The translations under genes were made by a program, and so were the position numbers. Shown in pieces: positions 3,205-10,477 of a stretch of 15,140 bases of DNA. The stretch comes from Alistipes sp. (GTDB lineage Bacteria; Bacteroidota; Bacteroidia; Bacteroidales; Rikenellaceae), in assembly GCA_017391185.1 (NCBI GenBank), contig JAFOZN010000224.1, positions 1-15,140 of the forward strand. The letters run 5' to 3'. The notes below the pieces were generated by a model. It did no database searches, was not told the origin of the DNA, and saw nothing but the letters and a program-made list of their open reading frames with translations. Position 1 is the stretch's first letter; each line of letters starts with the position of its first letter.

Positions 3205-4125
3205 TTACTCTACCACACCGATAATATCGCTCAGGCGCTCGATACCTAATCTCTCCATCTCCTGAGGCAAATCCTCAATGATACGCTTACAAGCATATGG
3301 ATCTTTAAGATTAGCAGCACCAACCTGCACCGCAGTAGCTCCAGCCATCATCATCTCTATAACATCCGATGCCGATTCAACGCCACCACAACCCATCACA
3401 GGCACAGAACAAGCCTTAGAGACCTGATAAACCATGCGCACAGCTACAGGAAATACTGCAGGGCCTGAGAAACCACCCATCTTATTGGCAATAACAGGTC
3501 TGCGGCGTTTAGTGTCGATACGCATACCCAAAAGCGTATTGATCAGACAGATACCATCAGCACCCGCTTCCTCACACGCCTTAGCGATAGCTACGATATC
3601 GGTAACATTTGGACTCAGCTTAATGAATACAGGCTTAGTCGTCACCGCCTTCACCGCACGAGTAACCTCTGCCGCCATCTTAGGATCGGTACCGAAACTC
3701 ATACCTCCATTGTGCACATTAGGACATGAGACATTCACCTCGATGATAGCGACCTGCTCCTGCTTATCAATCTTCTCGCAACACTCGGCATATTCATCAA
3801 TCGAGAAACCACTGATATTGGCCACAATCGGCTTACGGAAAATCTTACGCAACTCAGGCAACTCATGCTCAACAACGGCATCCACACCAGGATTCTGCAA
3901 ACCCACAGAATTGATCATACCCGAACGACACTCAGCGATACGTGGGGTAGGATTACCAAAGCGTGCCTCGCGTGTAGTACCCTTAACAGAGATAGAGCCG
4001 AGGATATTAATATCATAGAACTCATTATGCTCGCGGCCAAAACCAAACGTGCCACTTGCTGGAATGATAGGGTTGTCGAGCTTCACGCCACACAACTCAA
4101 CTGATAGATCAAAATTCTTTGCCAT
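3205..4125 (-). CDS. pyrD: Dihydroorotate dehydrogenase, class 1B catalytic subunit (PyrD/PyrDB)
   Basis: This cytoplasmic FMN enzyme oxidises dihydroorotate to orotate, the fourth step of UMP synthesis. The 306-residue TIM-barrel protein has the substrate motif INSVGLQNPG (about 71-80), the catalytic base Cys134 in VNVSCPN (Cys is diagnostic of class 1; class 2 uses Ser), FIKLSPN (167-173) and the FMN-phosphate loops VMGCGGVESASD and AVQVGAANL near the C-terminus. A PyrK subunit encoded 12 nt upstream makes this class 1B, the NAD-linked heterotetramer. There is no N-terminal membrane extension of the class 2 type. The start MAKNFDLSVELCGVKLDNP fits the family. Confidence 0.95.
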   Translation of the reverse strand: MAKNFDLSVELCGVKLDNPIIPASGTFGFGREHNEFYDINILGSISVKGTTREARFGNPTPRIAECRSGMINSVGLQNPGVDAVVEHELPELRKIFRKPIVANISGFSIDEYAECCEKIDKQEQVAIIEVNVSCPNVHNGGMSFGTDPKMAAEVTRAVKAVTTKPVFIKLSPNVTDIVAIAKACEEAGADGICLINTLLGMRIDTKRRRPVIANKMGGFSGPAVFPVAVRMVYQVSKACSVPVMGCGGVESASDVIEMMMAGATAVQVGAANLKDPYACKRIIEDLPQEMERLGIERLSDIIGVVE

Positions 4126-4137
4126 ACTCTGCTTTAG

Positions 4138-4878
4138 TTACCAAATTATCTCCTCTCGCTTCATCACAGGGCCATCCTTGCAGATACGCTTATTACCAGC
4201 CAAAGTCTTACAACTACAACCCATACAAGCTCCGAAACCACAACCCATACGCTCCTCAAACGAAAGCTCGCCCGACACCTCGCAGCAGTCGCACAAAGCC
4301 TTCAACATTGGCAACGGACCACACGAGTAGAAGTAATCGAACTTAATCTCAGCCTTACGGATAGCATCCGTAACAAAGCCCTTGACACCCATCGAGCCAT
4401 CAGCCGTAGAGATATATAGATCTACACCCAAAGCCTTAAACTCATCGGCATAGAAGATCTCTGACGAAGTATTGAAGCCCAATACCACCGATACCTGCTT
4501 ACCCTGAGCCAAAAGATCCTTCGCCAAGCGATAGAGTGGTGGAACACCTACGCCACCGCCAACAAGCAACGGACGCTCAGACTCAATACTTGTATCGAAA
4601 CCATTACCAAGACCTGTCAGAAGATCGAGCTTTACGCCCTGAGCCATCTTAGACATCTGCTCGGTGCCTCGACCTACGACTTTATATATAATGGTAATAG
4701 TACGCTCATCCCAATCTGAGATAGAGATCGGGCGGCGCAGATACAACCCCTCCAGTTCGATATTAACGAACTGGCCGGGGCGTGTAATCCACTCGGTATC
4801 TCCCTCCAAAACCATGCGATAGACATCTTTGGTCAAAGGAGTATTGGAGATAACGGTATATATATCCTTTTTATACAT
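4138..4878 (-). CDS. pyrK: Dihydroorotate dehydrogenase electron-transfer subunit (PyrK)
   Basis: PyrK passes electrons from FMN in PyrD to NAD+ through a [2Fe-2S] cluster and FAD. The 246-residue protein has a ferredoxin-reductase-like FAD domain with the flavin motif RRPISI (about 49-54), a nucleotide-binding loop LLVGGGVGVPPLY (104-116) and SCGPLPML (185-192). The cluster ligands near the C-terminus are Cys213, Cys218, Cys221 and Cys233, spaced C-x4-C-x2-C-x11-C, as expected for PyrK. The gene starts 2 nt after the carB stop and ends 12 nt before pyrD, a spacing that suggests coupled translation and stoichiometric production with PyrD. Confidence 0.94.
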   Translation of the reverse strand: MYKKDIYTVISNTPLTKDVYRMVLEGDTEWITRPGQFVNIELEGLYLRRPISISDWDERTITIIYKVVGRGTEQMSKMAQGVKLDLLTGLGNGFDTSIESERPLLVGGGVGVPPLYRLAKDLLAQGKQVSVVLGFNTSSEIFYADEFKALGVDLYISTADGSMGVKGFVTDAIRKAEIKFDYFYSCGPLPMLKALCDCCEVSGELSFEERMGCGFGACMGCSCKTLAGNKRICKDGPVMKREEIIW

Positions 4879-4880
4879 AA

Positions 4881-7800
4881 TTACTCTGCATCAATAGTCG
4901 ATACACCCAAAGTAATCTCCTCCAAGACGTTGAGCAATACGCTCACAGTCTCCAACGCGGTAAAGAGTGTCACATTGTTCTCTGCCGCAGCACGGCGGAT
5001 ATCGTATCCGTCACGGCGGTTACTATGCTGATTTACATCGATAGTATTGATAACGTATGTAACGTGGCCCTTACGCAACTCATCATAGATCTCTGTGCTA
5101 CCCTCGCTGAGCTTACGCAAGTAGCGTGTACGCACGCCATGGCTACGAAGGAACTCACAAGTGCCCTTAGTGGCCTCGATATTGAAACCAAGATCGTAGA
5201 AACGCTTGATGAGTGGCAATGCACGCTCCTTATCTGCATCCGACAAAGTAACGAAGATAGTACCGTAGTTTGCTACCGCAACACCCGAAGAGCGCAATGA
5301 CTTATACAACGCACGATTCAAGCTCTTGTCATAACCGATAGCCTCACCCGTAGACTTCATCTCTGGCGAGAGGTATGAATCCAAACCGCGAATCTTAGCA
5401 AATGAGAAGGCTGGAGACTTAACAAACCAGCGAGTGCTCTCCTTACCATACATCTCTGTAATGCCCTGCTCACGGAGTGAGTGGCCGAGGATAACCATAG
5501 TAGCGATCTTGGCCATAGGGATACCTGTTGACTTCGAGAGGAATGGTACGGTACGCGAAGAACGTGGGTTAACCTCGATAACGAATACCTTATCGTTCTC
5601 ATCCACAATAAACTGGATATTGAACAGACCGATGATACCGATTGCCATACCCAACTGCTTGGTGTATTCGATGATGGTATCCTTCACCTGCTGGCTTACG
5701 CTGAAAGTAGGGTAGACACTAATACTATCACCAGAGTGCACACCTGTACGCTCCACGTGCTCCATGATGCCTGGGATAAATACATCCTTACCATCACAAA
5801 TAGCATCAACCTCCAACTCCTTACCGATAATATACTTATCAACCAAGACTGGTGACTTCTCGTTGATCTCCACAGCCGAGCGCAAGTAGTGACGCAAAGT
5901 CTCCTCATTACCTACGATCTGCATAGCACGACCACCCAACACGAAACTTGGGCGCACCAAAACAGGGTAACCAATACGCTCTGCCGCAGCAACACCTGTC
6001 TCGATATCTGTCACAGCCTGAGCATCTGGCTGAGGAATACCTACCTCGTTCATAATACGCTCGAAGCACTTACGATCCTCTGCGTTATTGATAGCATCGA
6101 TACCTGTACCGATAATCTTCACGCCCAAATCAGCCAATGGCTCTGCAAGGTTGATAGCTGTCTGACCACCCAAAGAGACTACAATACCCTCTGGATTCTC
6201 CAACTCTACGACATTCATCACATCCTCCACGGTCAATGGCTCGAAGTAGAGCTTGTCGCTGATGGTATAGTCAGTAGATACGGTCTCAGGGTTATTGTTG
6301 ATGATGATAGCCTCGTAGCCAGCCTCCTTAATAGTCCAAATAGCGTGTACTGTCGAATAATCAAACTCCACACCCTGACCGATACGGATAGGGCCCGAAC
6401 CGAGTACCAAAATCTTCTTACGATCGCTACGCTTAGACTCATTCTCCACCTCATATGTAGAGTAGAAGTATGGAACGTATGTATCAATCTCACCTGCACA
6501 AGAGTCAATAATCTTATATACAGGGAAGATACCCTCTGCCTTACGCAGATAATACATCTCTGCCTCGCTCTTACCCCAAAGCTGACCTATATACTTATCG
6601 CTGAAGCCCATACGCTTAGCCTCCTTCAAGGTAGCGATATCGCCTACGTTAGTCTTAACCAACTTCTCCATCTCAACGATATTCTTGAACTTCTCCAAGA
6701 ACAACATATCAATCTTGGTATGATTATAGATAATAAGTAGATCAACACCCAAGCGAATCAACTGTGCGATAGCATAGATTCTATCATCGGTACCCTTACG
6801 GATATACTCCAACATCTGAGCTACAGTCCAATCATCGAACTTCTTGTGATAGATGTGGCATACACCCGTCTCCAACGAACGGATAGCCTTCAAAAGGCCC
6901 TCCTCAAGTGTACGGCCAATACTCATCACCTCACCCGTAGCCTTCATCTGAGTACCCAACTCATTTGAAGCATCGCTAAACTTATCGAATGGGAAGCGAG
7001 CGACCTTCAATACTACATAATCCAACGCTGGCTCAAAGCATGCAGGACGATCTGCGATCATGATCTCATCCAAAGTAAGACCAATGGCGATCTTGGCTGT
7101 TACGCGTGCGATAGGGAAACCGCTGGCCTTAGAAGCCAAAGCCGAAGAACGAGAAACTCGTGGGTTAACCTCGATGATATAATACTTGAATGAAAGTGGA
7201 TCCAACGCAAACTGCACGTTACAACCACCCTCAATCTTCAATGCACGGATAATCTTGAGGGCGCTATTACGCAAGAGTTGATACTCCTTATCGGTAAGAG
7301 TCTGAGCTGGAGCAACAACCATACTATCACCTGTATGGATACCTACAGGGTCGATATTCTCCATACTACAGATAGCGATAGCGGTATCATTCTTATCGCG
7401 CATCACCTCAAACTCAATCTCCTTATAGCCCTTGATACTCTTCTCGACCAAAACCTGATGCACAGGCGAAAGGATCAAAGCGTTACGCATAATCTCGCGC
7501 AACTCCTCCTCATTGTCGGCAAAACCGCCACCTGTACCACCCAAAGTAAAGGCTGGACGCAACACTACTGGATAACCGATCTGCTCAGCAGCCTTGACAC
7601 CATCCTCCATAGAGTTCACCACGAGCGAAGGCAATACTGGCTCACCGATACGTACACACAAATCCTTGAAGAGCTCACGATCCTCAGCCTCCTCGATACT
7701 TGTAAACGAAGTACCCAAGATCTCGACATGGCACTCATCCAAAACGCCCTTCTTAGCAAGCTGTACAGCCAAGTTAAGACCAGTCTGACCACCCAAACCT

Positions 7801-8063
7801 GGAACGATAGCATCAGGACGCTCATAGCGCACGATCTTAGCTACATACTCCAATGTAAGTGGCTCCATATACACCTTGTCGGCGATATTGGTATCGGTCA
7901 TAATAGTTGCAGGGTTAGAGTTTACGAGGATAACCTCATAACCCTCCTCCTTCAATGCCAAACAAGCCTGAGTTCCTGCATAGTCAAACTCCGCTGCCTG
8001 ACCAATGACAATCGGACCTGAGCCGATCACCATCACTTTCTTAATATCTGTTCTTTTAGGCAT
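4881..8063 (-). CDS. carB: Carbamoyl-phosphate synthase large subunit (CarB)
   Basis: CarB makes carbamoyl phosphate from bicarbonate, ammonia and two ATP. The 1060-residue protein has the full architecture: first ATP-grasp half (about 1-400), oligomerisation domain (400-550), second ATP-grasp half (550-925) and an MGS-like allosteric domain (about 930-1060). Active-site residues known from E. coli are present in the first half: Arg129, Arg169 in VLRPAFTLGG, Glu215, and Glu298/Asn300 in IIEVNPRVSRSSALASK. The second half repeats them (VLVRPSFVLGG, VFVIEVNPRSSRT). The C-terminal domain, the usual site of UMP or ornithine control, is intact. The ATG overlaps the carA stop by 8 nt (ATGCCTAA), implying translational coupling. 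Because CarA appears to lack its glutaminase nucleophile, the ammonia used here may come from solution. Confidence 0.97.
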   Translation of the reverse strand: MPKRTDIKKVMVIGSGPIVIGQAAEFDYAGTQACLALKEEGYEVILVNSNPATIMTDTNIADKVYMEPLTLEYVAKIVRYERPDAIVPGLGGQTGLNLAVQLAKKGVLDECHVEILGTSFTSIEEAEDRELFKDLCVRIGEPVLPSLVVNSMEDGVKAAEQIGYPVVLRPAFTLGGTGGGFADNEEELREIMRNALILSPVHQVLVEKSIKGYKEIEFEVMRDKNDTAIAICSMENIDPVGIHTGDSMVVAPAQTLTDKEYQLLRNSALKIIRALKIEGGCNVQFALDPLSFKYYIIEVNPRVSRSSALASKASGFPIARVTAKIAIGLTLDEIMIADRPACFEPALDYVVLKVARFPFDKFSDASNELGTQMKATGEVMSIGRTLEEGLLKAIRSLETGVCHIYHKKFDDWTVAQMLEYIRKGTDDRIYAIAQLIRLGVDLLIIYNHTKIDMLFLEKFKNIVEMEKLVKTNVGDIATLKEAKRMGFSDKYIGQLWGKSEAEMYYLRKAEGIFPVYKIIDSCAGEIDTYVPYFYSTYEVENESKRSDRKKILVLGSGPIRIGQGVEFDYSTVHAIWTIKEAGYEAIIINNNPETVSTDYTISDKLYFEPLTVEDVMNVVELENPEGIVVSLGGQTAINLAEPLADLGVKIIGTGIDAINNAEDRKCFERIMNEVGIPQPDAQAVTDIETGVAAAERIGYPVLVRPSFVLGGRAMQIVGNEETLRHYLRSAVEINEKSPVLVDKYIIGKELEVDAICDGKDVFIPGIMEHVERTGVHSGDSISVYPTFSVSQQVKDTIIEYTKQLGMAIGIIGLFNIQFIVDENDKVFVIEVNPRSSRTVPFLSKSTGIPMAKIATMVILGHSLREQGITEMYGKESTRWFVKSPAFSFAKIRGLDSYLSPEMKSTGEAIGYDKSLNRALYKSLRSSGVAVANYGTIFVTLSDADKERALPLIKRFYDLGFNIEATKGTCEFLRSHGVRTRYLRKLSEGSTEIYDELRKGHVTYVINTIDVNQHSNRRDGYDIRRAAAENNVTLFTALETVSVLLNVLEEITLGVSTIDAE

Positions 8064-9144
8064 TTTGATACTCCTCCATCAATTTAATAAATTTATCGAA
8101 AAGATATGTGCTGTCCTGTGGACCTGGTGCGCTCTCTGGGTGGAACTGCACGCCATACATTCTGTCACGTACACACTCTACACCCTCGATGGTACCATCC
8201 AATACATTCTCATGGGTAACGCTGAGGCGTGTAGGACGGATAGAGTCAGCATCTACCACATAGCCATGTCCCTGAGATGTCATGTCGATTCTACCCGATG
8301 TAATATCACGGACCGCCGAACCACCATGGTGACCACACTTCATCTTCTTTATCTTGGCTCCGTATGCCAAAGCGATAAGCTCCATACCGAGTGATATACC
8401 AAAGAGAGGAATCTTACCATCAATCTGACGAATCAACTCCACTACCTCTGGCAACTGCTCAGGGCTACCTGGACCATCCGAAATAAAGATACCGTCTGGA
8501 TTGAAGGCCTTGATCTCATCCAAAGTAGTGTTGTAAGGTACGATTGTCACATTGCAACCACGCTTAGTGAATTGGCTGATGATAGATGTCTTGATACCGC
8601 AATCCACAGCTACGATGTCATACTTGTGGTTAGGTGTACGAGAGAACCAACGCTTGCGGCAGCTTACCTTCTTAACCTGATTCTCAGGCAGTGGGGTATT
8701 CTTAATCATCTCCAAAGCCTGCTCCAAAGTAGTATCAACATTAACAATAGCAGCACGCTGAGAACCCTCATCGCGAATGATGCGTACAATCTGACGAGTA
8801 TCTACTCCTGCTACGCAAGGGATACCAGCCTCCTCCAAAGTCTCTGAGAAGGTCTTGGTGTAACGGAAGTTACTTGGATTCTCATTACACTCCCTCACTA
8901 CCATACCACCAATCTGTGGCACCTTAGACTCAAAATCCTCATCGGTAATACCATAGTTACCAATCAGCGGATAGGCCATCACCACAATCTGATCAACACA
9001 CGAAGGATCAGAGAGAATCTCCTGATATCCTACCACCGAAGTGTTGAAAACGATCTCACACACTCGCTCAACATTGGCACCATAGCCATAGCCGAGGAAC
9101 TCAGAGCCGTTCTCAAGGACTAATTTTTTTGTAAATGGTTTCAT
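8056..9144 (-). CDS. carA: Carbamoyl-phosphate synthase small subunit (CarA) with Cys-to-Ser in the glutaminase site
   Basis: CarA normally hydrolyses glutamine and channels ammonia to CarB. The 362 residues show the CPSase small-chain N-terminal domain (VVGYQEILSDPS at 38-48, IGNYGI, GVDTRQIVR) and a class I glutamine amidotransferase domain (DGPGSPE near 223-229, VQFHPES with His335 and Glu337). The nucleophile elbow, normally FGICLG, reads FGISLG: Ser251, codon TCA at 8394-8392, replaces the catalytic Cys (E. coli Cys269). Positions equivalent to glutamine-binding Gln273 and Asn311 look like Glu255 and Gly292. The frame is intact and the rest is well conserved, so this is not a decaying gene. 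Vertebrate CPS1, which uses ammonia, has the same Cys-to-Ser change. The gene lies 28 nt after pyrC and overlaps carB by 8 nt. Identity is certain; loss of glutaminase activity is an inference. Confidence 0.95.
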   Translation of the reverse strand: MKPFTKKLVLENGSEFLGYGYGANVERVCEIVFNTSVVGYQEILSDPSCVDQIVVMAYPLIGNYGITDEDFESKVPQIGGMVVRECNENPSNFRYTKTFSETLEEAGIPCVAGVDTRQIVRIIRDEGSQRAAIVNVDTTLEQALEMIKNTPLPENQVKKVSCRKRWFSRTPNHKYDIVAVDCGIKTSIISQFTKRGCNVTIVPYNTTLDEIKAFNPDGIFISDGPGSPEQLPEVVELIRQIDGKIPLFGISLGMELIALAYGAKIKKMKCGHHGGSAVRDITSGRIDMTSQGHGYVVDADSIRPTRLSVTHENVLDGTIEGVECVRDRMYGVQFHPESAPGPQDSTYLFDKFIKLMEEYQNA

Positions 9145-9172: not shown

Positions 9173-10441
9173 TTATTTTTCATACACAACTTTACCATCG
9201 ACCAAGGTCATCACACACTCACCTTCGAGCTCCCACCCCTTAAAAGGAGTACTACGGCCCATAGAGTGGAATGTATCTGGATCTACCGTAAATTGGCTCT
9301 CAAGATCAAAAACTGCAATATCGGCAGCCTCACCGACCAACATACCGCCACCCATCTTAAAGAGTTTGCGAGGATTCTCCGACATAAGCTCGATAGCCTT
9401 TTCAAGCGAGATTATGCCTCCCTTCACAAGTTTGGTATAGATCACCGCAAACGAGGTCTCCAAACCAACAACACCCATTGCACTCAAAGCCAAACCACGA
9501 GATTTTTCATCGGCTGTATGTGGTGCATGATCTGTCGCAATCACCTCGATTGTACCATCCTTAATACCCTCAATCAAAGCATCTCGATCCTGAGCCGAGC
9601 GAATAGGTGGATTCATCTTGAAACGGCCATCCTCCTGCAGATCCATATCACACATTGTCAAGTAATGAGGAGCTGTCTCACACGAAACCTTCAAACCTCT
9701 GCGTTTTGCCTCGCGGACCAAAGCCACTCCCTCCTTAGTCGAGATATGGCAAACATGATATTGACAAGAAGTCTCTGCCACAAGTTCTATATCGCGCTTA
9801 ATCTGCGCCCACTCGCTCTCTGAGCAGATACCCTTATGACCATTCTTGGCAGCATACTCTCCATCGTGGATATATCCACCCTTTAGTAGATCATTCACCT
9901 CGCAATGAGCTGCGATAATAGTATCATTCTTAGCAGCCTCAGCCATCGCTTGACGCATCATATCGTCATCTTGGACACCACTTCCATCATCCGAAAATCC
10001 AGCAACTTTCTTCGTAAGCGAAGCAAAGTCCACCAACTCTCGACCATAGCGTTTACGAGTAATTGTAGCGTAAGGCAGAACCTTAACTTTGGCGTCACGC
10101 TCTATAATCTCCAATTGCTTCTCCAGATTCTCTACACTATCGGGAGCTGGGCTAAGATTAGGCATAGAGCAGACCGCTGTAAAACCACCATGCGCCGCAG
10201 CTGCACTACCCGTAGCAATGGTCTCCTTAGCCGAAAATCCAGGTTCACGCAAATGGACATGCACATCCACCAAACCACTGGTAACTATCTTACCCTCACA
10301 ATCCACAACTCTATCCTGAGTTGTAGCCTCTATATCTTGCTCGATGGCAACAATTTTACCACCACATATAGCCACATCAGCCTTGCGAGATACGCCTTGG
10401 CCGACCACTACACCGCCTTTAAGAATTATTCGCTGCTCCAT
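9173..10441 (-). CDS. pyrC: Dihydroorotase, class I (PyrC)
   Basis: Dihydroorotase cyclises carbamoyl aspartate to dihydroorotate, the third step of UMP synthesis. The 422-residue amidohydrolase has zinc ligands His61 and His63 in DVHVHLREPG, Asp151 in GFSDDG, His179 in AAHCE and His232 in CHISTKE, plus catalytic Asp304 in IATDHAPHT. Aspartate at 151 in place of a carbamylated lysine, and this length, are typical of class I enzymes such as those of Bacillus and Aquifex. ATG 10441 is preferred because a longer frame starting at 10453 uses TTG and would begin within the T-tract of the upstream hairpin. It is the first structural gene of the operon and lies directly downstream of a terminator-like hairpin, so its expression probably depends on read-through. 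Confidence 0.96.
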   Translation of the reverse strand: MEQRIILKGGVVVGQGVSRKADVAICGGKIVAIEQDIEATTQDRVVDCEGKIVTSGLVDVHVHLREPGFSAKETIATGSAAAAHGGFTAVCSMPNLSPAPDSVENLEKQLEIIERDAKVKVLPYATITRKRYGRELVDFASLTKKVAGFSDDGSGVQDDDMMRQAMAEAAKNDTIIAAHCEVNDLLKGGYIHDGEYAAKNGHKGICSESEWAQIKRDIELVAETSCQYHVCHISTKEGVALVREAKRRGLKVSCETAPHYLTMCDMDLQEDGRFKMNPPIRSAQDRDALIEGIKDGTIEVIATDHAPHTADEKSRGLALSAMGVVGLETSFAVIYTKLVKGGIISLEKAIELMSENPRKLFKMGGGMLVGEAADIAVFDLESQFTVDPDTFHSMGRSTPFKGWELEGECVMTLVDGKVVYEK

Positions 10442-10451
10442 ATTTATGCAC

Positions 10452-10477
10452 AAAAAGGGCGACTAAATAAGCCGCCC
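10452..10477 (-). terminator. Intrinsic terminator / putative attenuator in front of pyrC
   Basis: On the minus strand GGGCGGCT (10477-10470), loop TATTT, AGTCGCCC (10464-10457) forms an 8-bp GC-rich stem with one G-U pair, followed at once by TTTTT (10456-10452). The T-tract ends 10 nt before the pyrC ATG at 10441, too close for another promoter in between. Read-through must therefore be allowed and is probably regulated. The stop codon of the leader ORF lies 5 nt upstream of the stem, so a terminating ribosome would cover the 5' arm. Confidence 0.8.

Follow-up and report, generated by a model that had tools for sequence, protein, structure and literature searches.

In Escherichia coli, carbamoyl phosphate is made by a two-subunit, class II, glutamine-dependent synthetase (CarAB). 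Cys-269 and His-353 of its small subunit are described as essential for glutamine hydrolysis via a thioester, and the large subunit is stated to catalyse synthesis from ammonia (PMC6245113). According to the same source, very high and likely physiologically irrelevant concentrations are needed when E. coli CPSase works on ammonia (PMC6245113), and a review names glutamine as the physiologically relevant donor for E. coli. Human CPS1 is reported to carry an inactive GATase-like domain with Ser294 and to be unable to use glutamine; its tunnel is also described as altered, with an alternative entry being possible (PMC4655335). CPS I is listed as the ammonia-only type (PMC6022934). Among rumen Bacteroidales, Prevotella ruminicola is reported to grow on ammonium, with methionine (PMC5552732).

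The car locus of the window

The window, i.e. the whole stretch of DNA analysed, comprises 15,140 nucleotides of an Alistipes genome. Its carA adjoins an intact carB, with which it shares an 8 bp overlap, in a row of pyr-like genes (Table 1). The reading frame is open across all 362 codons, and the product matches the CarA model TIGR01368 over its full length (417 bits, curated cut-off 307), with both the N-terminal CPSase domain (PF00988) and the class I GATase domain (PF00117) present. A first, sequence-only reading of this DNA, which had called the gene otherwise intact, in frame and part of an operon, is borne out.

Table 1. Coordinates of the genes, domains and CarA residues in the window
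Feature	Position	Strand	Basis
carA, CarA small subunit, 362 aa, glutaminase site inactivated (predicted)	8056..9144	(-)	ORF; TIGR01368; PF00988 + PF00117
CarA N-terminal CPSase_sm_chain domain, residues 8-133	8746..9123	(-)	PF00988
CarA class I glutamine amidotransferase domain, residues 179-354, fold kept (predicted)	8083..8610	(-)	PF00117; AlphaFold model
CarA nucleophile codon TCA, Ser251 (E. coli Cys269)	8392..8394	(-)	alignment
CarA Glu255 (E. coli Gln273, glutamine pocket)	8380..8382	(-)	alignment
CarA Gly292 (E. coli Asn311, glutamine pocket)	8269..8271	(-)	alignment
CarA His335 (E. coli His353), kept	8140..8142	(-)	alignment
CarA Glu337 (E. coli Glu355), kept	8134..8136	(-)	alignment
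carB, synthetase subunit, 1060 aa, sampled catalytic residues intact	4881..8063	(-)	ORF, residue comparison
pyrC-like dihydroorotase, upstream of carA	9173..10453	(-)	named by sequence and operon context, no family scan
pyrK-like electron-transfer subunit of dihydroorotate dehydrogenase	4138..4878	(-)	named by sequence, no family scan
pyrD-like dihydroorotate dehydrogenase	3205..4125	(-)	named by sequence, no family scan

The nucleophile region G-I-S-L-G-M-E is encoded by ggtatatcactcggtatggag (minus strand, 8400-8380). Aligned with E. coli K-12 CarA, the window protein has Ser251 for Cys269, Met254 for His272, Glu255 for Gln273 and Gly292 for Asn311, and it shares Gly224 (Gly241), Gly294 (Gly313), His335 (His353) and Glu337 (Glu355); the Cys-His-Glu triad is represented by Ser251, His335 and Glu337. 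In the profile of a 21-row alignment (A1), Ser251 likewise aligns with Cys269 of the E. coli CarA deposited in the PDB. Codon and alignment confirm the proposal that serine replaces cysteine at the glutaminase nucleophile, and the five residues that the first reading had named (window Ser251, Glu255, Gly292, His335 and Glu337) are all right against the K-12 protein.

The AlphaFold model computed from alignment A1 (mean pLDDT 86, pTM 0.87) has E. coli CarA as its nearest PDB chain (TM by query length about 0.9), followed by human CPS1. Matches include 1a9x of E. coli CarAB as well as 5dot, 5dou, 6uel and 6w2j of CPS1. The substitution itself, at the same site, is known from the C269S variant of E. 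coli CarA (PDB 1c30/1c3o; chain 1c30_B reads GISLGHQ); that variant is laboratory-made and differs in one residue, whereas the window CarA is natural and has further changes in the pocket.

TCA is two changes away from either Cys codon. Serine also occupies the nucleophile site in two independent sequences in which a Cys was looked for, namely the CarA of genome G126 of the same genus (L144) and the protein database entry P0031, each 97% identical to the window CarA. The other Ser holders of the genus use TCG, AGC, AGT or TCT, i.e. five Ser codons occur overall. A single read error had been judged unlikely, rightly in view of the independent sequences; because these carry Ser and omega is low in the clade (see below), a read or assembly error and a pseudogene are both ruled out for the window carA. 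A second, canonical carA was likewise sought: none was found in the window genome, which is 84.8% complete, and each of the other 24 genomes in the Ser/Ala clade to which the window belongs gives a single CarA match at E <= 1e-20.

The nucleophile site across the genus

The genus of the window, taken to be Alistipes as defined by GTDB, is represented here by 180 genomes, 161 of which possess a CarA of the window's type. The nucleophile residue in these 161 is Cys (56), Gly (34), Ser (32), Asp (32), Ala (3), Asn (2) or Glu (2). All 56 Cys types keep both His and Glu. The 105 non-Cys types comprise 37 with both residues, 67 without one or both, and one sequence that is cut off before the site. 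Among the 32 Ser types, 25 retain the His and the Glu; His is replaced by Tyr in six and by Asn in one. The Ala types (L006, L009, L142) are close relatives of the window. Two Gly-type CarAs (G140, G156) have one stop codon crossed by the alignment.

The loop that bears the tunnel residue Gly293 reads GH[RH]G[GA]NHP in all 56 Cys types; among the dead (non-Cys) types it occurs in many variants, and it is one residue shorter in all 25 members of the window's Ser/Ala clade. Among the best 80 of 588 loci found in public records, 12 lack the Cys, all titled Alistipes, Rikenellaceae or Tidjanibacter, and Cys is present in 14 Alistipes-titled loci and in all 54 titled as other groups. The closest public relatives among these 80 (L059-L065) are MAGs, obtained from the colon and rectum of dairy cattle, the rectum of water buffalo and of water deer, the colon and cecum of yak and the cecum of goat.

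Besides their Gly-type CarA, four genomes (G166, G172, G201, G202; second loci L271-L274) hold a canonical Bacteroidales-type CarA with Cys, next to a Bacteroidales-type carB in G166, G172 and G201; two CPS systems may share the work in these four genomes. The second, Bacteroidales-type CarA of G149 (L275) has Gly for Cys and has also lost the His; with 8% contamination in this assembly, L275 possibly derives from a contaminating genome.

Changes at the nucleophile site and selection on CarA

A tree of 185 CarAs, built without the active-site columns, requires the site to switch between Cys and non-Cys 8 times, with at least 5 of the switches forced by starred branches. The more careful tree of 78 of these CarAs, picked across clades and including 42 non-Cys rows, also gives 8 changes (7-8 in bootstrap replicates; at least 5 forced), and the tree of the N-domain gives 8 with at least 3 forced. 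An AU test against one clade of the 42 non-Cys rows rejects a single ancestral loss (p 3e-32). Such counts do not separate gain from loss; we take the changes as losses, since a return of the Cys along with the pocket is unlikely. On these sequence trees the Cys thus appears to have been lost repeatedly and independently among the CarAs of the genus and family. The window falls in a dead group of 29 CarAs (25 Ser/Ala, 4 Gly). Other dead lineages include a group of 36 with Asp or Gly next to three Cys species, a group of 29 with Gly, Glu, Asn or Ser next to Cys rows, and 10 Gly types that lie within a set of Cys species, as well as single cases.

CarA of the dead clades is under purifying selection. 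Median omega in these clades is 0.07-0.15 for the N-domain and 0.07-0.22 for the GATase domain, the latter being 0.16 in the window's clade. The ratio of dN(GATase) to dN(N-domain) is 1.45-1.88 in four dead clades and 0.62 in the fifth (5 pairs), against 1.00-1.60 in four Cys clades; the extra relaxation of the GATase domain is modest and overlaps with the Cys clades. The ratio of CarA to CarB differences is 2.45-4.05 in six sequences of the window group and 0.84-2.75 in seven Cys-type sequences (three Cys-type loci being left out), with overlapping ranges. The earlier description of this CarA as structurally retained and glutaminase-dead fits the intact fold predicted by the model, the low omega of the GATase domain and the frequent loss of His or Glu that would have followed that of Cys.

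Genomes without carA and the state of carB

CarA is absent from 19 genomes of the genus. Eight of these possess a full-length carB inside a contig; in the other 11, carB is cut at a contig end (three), present as a half (one) or a fragment (one), or not found (six). In G090, pyrC ends at 1425 and carB starts at 1498, followed by pyrK and pyrD, which leaves no room for carA, and G031, G148 and G151 have the same gene order. The window CarA as query gives no match on these four pyrC-carB-pyrK-pyrD operons (L277, L278, L283, L284). The remaining four (G018, G095, G108, G110) have a Bacteroidales-type carB alone, without carA.

At 22 positions that we take to be catalytic or nucleotide-binding, the CarBs of E. 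coli and the window were set against 27 others, of which eight come from CarA-less genomes. Seventeen positions are invariant, the one exception being a gap at 715 in the Cys-type row L116; variation at the other five (208, 210, 242, 754 and 787) is seen among Cys types as well. Identity of CarB among five members of the window's clade is 93-98%.

Other genera of the family and order

Within the order but outside the family, 24 genomes were searched; 18 have a full-length CarA, always with Cys-His-Glu. Extending the comparison of the Cys269 site to close relatives and other Bacteroidota, as the sequence-only reading had proposed, yields Cys in every full-length CarA from the other families and a different residue in 105 of the 161 genus CarAs. 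In other genera of the same family, a search that excluded nine genomes found CarA in 58 of 79 genomes, at 60 places. Fifty of these places were read, and 35 have Cys-His-Glu. Genus g44 contains six CarAs of the window's type with Ser or Gly, and its member G272 has a Ser-type CarA plus a Bacteroidales-type CarA with Cys.

Nine Bacteroidales-type CarAs are eroded (L320, L321, L325, L327, L328 and L329 in genus g45; L323, L324 and L326 in genus g44). Two of them lack the Cys; the seven that keep it have a broken oxyanion loop and/or have lost His or Glu, three being cut at the C-terminus. The other CarA type is therefore decaying too, separately. Seven g44 genomes that are 98-99% complete (G251, G252, G253, G269, G270, G271, G273) give no CarA match at E <= 1e-25 and weak CarB matches, and probably have no carbamoyl-phosphate synthetase of this kind.

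The window-type CarA is about 60% identical to many CarAs from Clostridia-titled MAGs and about 34-38% identical to CarAs from the other families in its order. This closer resemblance suggests that the car genes of the window's type were acquired from outside.

Further glutamine amidotransferases

GuaA and PyrG were searched in 30 genomes, 26 of them CarA-dead and four CarA-less. The synthetase half of GuaA was found in 26; in 18 of these the glutaminase half is a remnant without nucleophile or HPE. GuaA is intact in the other eight, i.e. four of the Asp group, three with a lone Bacteroidales-type carB, and G172 with its second, canonical CarA. The GuaA of the window genome (L385, contig 53, 1498-2805(-)) is 435 aa long and lacks most of the GATase: compared with single-chain GMP synthetase its synthetase half is intact, and its GATase half matches positions 1-74 of a 188-position profile, with neither nucleophile nor HPE. 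The motif QFHPE or QYHPE before the synthetase half occurs in none of the 120 best database matches of this GuaA. In a contig-end open frame of the window genome (L396, contig 108), part of the GuaA C-terminal domain is joined to a stretch that is acidic and repetitive.

PyrG was found in 22 of the 30 genomes and not found in eight at E <= 1e-50. Its triad is intact in 12 and broken in 10 (Cys to Gly and/or His to Asn or Leu); the CTP synthase of the window genome (L357, contig 239, 1468-3093(-)) keeps the Cys and has LPQ for HPE. Intact GuaA is present in five Cys-CarA genomes (seven regions, two of them without GuaA), but these five were picked by resemblance to the GATase profile and are biased to intact copies, and the PyrG counts cover CarA-dead and CarA-less genomes. 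Because Cys-CarA genomes were not sampled without bias, we make no claim that decay of GuaA and PyrG follows that of CarA.

PurF of the window genome (L413, contig 247, 1348-2769(+)) starts with MSGFFG and has neither Cys1 nor the Asn-Gly motif of the pocket. A similar start without Cys1 is present in 112 of its 120 best database matches; the few named matches are Alistipes, Rikenellaceae, Bacteroidia or Bacteroidales. In a set of 12 genomes, of which ten are CarA-dead or CarA-less and two are Cys-type, seven have a PurF without Cys1. In the same set the Cys is kept in PurL (12/12), in HisH (4/4 found) and in GlmS (3/3 found). Loss of every glutaminase in the window genome is ruled out by its intact PurL.

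Glutamine synthetase (PF00120) is present in 161 of the 180 genus genomes, with two in the window genome, and was not found with this profile in 19, among them G019, which is 99% complete and has a Cys-type CarA. A lost glutamine synthesis is not supported as the cause. Since PurL and HisH keep their Cys and the window genome has two glutamine synthetases, glutamine is still made and probably used.

Discussion

As Cys-269 and His-353 are needed in E. coli, no thioester could form in the window CarA, and as the large subunit works from ammonia, the simplest reading is an ammonia-dependent CPS with a structural CarA. Judged from its sequence, the window CarA is very likely a glutaminase-dead structural subunit, and carbamoyl phosphate would be made from free ammonia as in vertebrate CPS1. 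CarA would still fold and sit with an intact CarB encoded in the pyr operon; lacking the Cys nucleophile, it would form no glutamyl thioester. Free ammonia would reach the carboxyphosphate site of CarB directly or via a remnant tunnel, as in CPS1. CarA would be kept for structure, and some lineages would later have dispensed with it. We infer that the glutaminase is inactive, that ammonia serves as the donor and that the ammonia-rich ruminant hindgut is the reason. Given the very high ammonia needed by the E. coli enzyme, the Alistipes enzyme or its habitat must differ: either the gut would supply the ammonia or these enzymes would bind it better.

In common with CPS1, the window system retains an inactive GATase-like domain with Ser at the nucleophile, the synthetase half of CPS1 being active. 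CPS1, however, is one fused chain, activated by N-acetylglutamate, of the urea cycle, whereas the window CarA and CarB are separate, bacterial and encoded in a pyrimidine operon. The replaced nucleophile of CPS I is thus found, its single fused polypeptide is not. With E. coli CarAB the window shares the same two subunits, the TIGR01368 match and 17 of the 22 sampled CarB positions, bar one gap; it differs in the replaced Cys269, His272, Gln273 and Asn311. The window system is functionally CPS1-like but not CPS I, being a variant of CarAB with separate subunits in a bacterial host, and the Alistipes system and CPS1 would be of independent origin.

A separate glutaminase or amidase might instead pass ammonia to CarAB, with CarA as its docking platform. 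Retained glutamine synthetases and purifying selection on CarA are in keeping with such an arrangement; eight genomes with carB but without carA argue against it, as does the lack of an obvious partner among the ORFs read in the window (no family scan), and we regard it as improbable. Marginally less probable still is a second, canonical glutamine-dependent CPS that supplies arginine or pyrimidines. It has its precedent in the Cys-bearing Bacteroidales-type CarAs of G166, G172, G201 and G202, three with carB beside them, and in the paired Ser and Cys types of G272, but no counterpart was found in the window genome, at its stated completeness, or in the 24 others of the Ser/Ala clade.

Serine could also be a working nucleophile in place of Cys, leaving CarA a (slow) glutaminase, and the window CarA, like most Ser types of the genus, does keep His335 and Glu337. 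Its equivalents of Gln273 and Asn311 are changed, however, the nucleophile site is Ala in close relatives and Gly, Asp, Asn or Glu in others, seven of the 32 Ser types have replaced the His, and carA is absent in other relatives, so that we give this reading very little credence. Equally hard to credit is a decay of the car genes in cells living on salvaged pyrimidines, with the enzyme in no present role: the weak CarB matches in several g44 genomes, the 6 of 180 genus genomes without both carA and carB at E <= 1e-20 and the stop codon crossed in G140 and G156 speak for it, but the CarBs of the window's clade are highly identical with their sampled catalytic residues intact, omega of CarA is well below 1, and pyrC-, pyrK- and pyrD-like genes are open beside carAB.

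With the ammonia-dependent reading, we consider it rather probable that a gut group of the Rikenellaceae has for the most part given up glutamine as the nitrogen donor for nucleotides, having lost the glutaminase sites of CarA, GuaA, PurF and PyrG, that of CarA several times, down to a CarB working without its small subunit, and that this is, as far as the literature searched goes, the first bacterial CPS described as ammonia-run in the cell. No prior report of an ammonia-run or glutaminase-dead bacterial CarAB was found in that literature, which comprises titles and the starts of abstracts, subscription journals and preprints lying outside. The family model TIGR01368 of NCBI labels such CarAs "glutamine-hydrolyzing", as does the record P0022 (84% identical to the window CarA); pathway and flux models based on annotation would therefore assign the wrong nitrogen donor.

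These genomes suggest an exception to glutamine as the donor that has arisen repeatedly, and a bacterial counterpart of the vertebrate switch from glutamine to ammonia. If this is true, the decay of a small subunit, of Cys, then of His or Glu, then of the gene, is visible inside one genus. With Cys-type, dead and absent CarA side by side in that genus, the role of CarA without glutaminase would be testable by comparison, and so would a lowering of the Km for ammonia.
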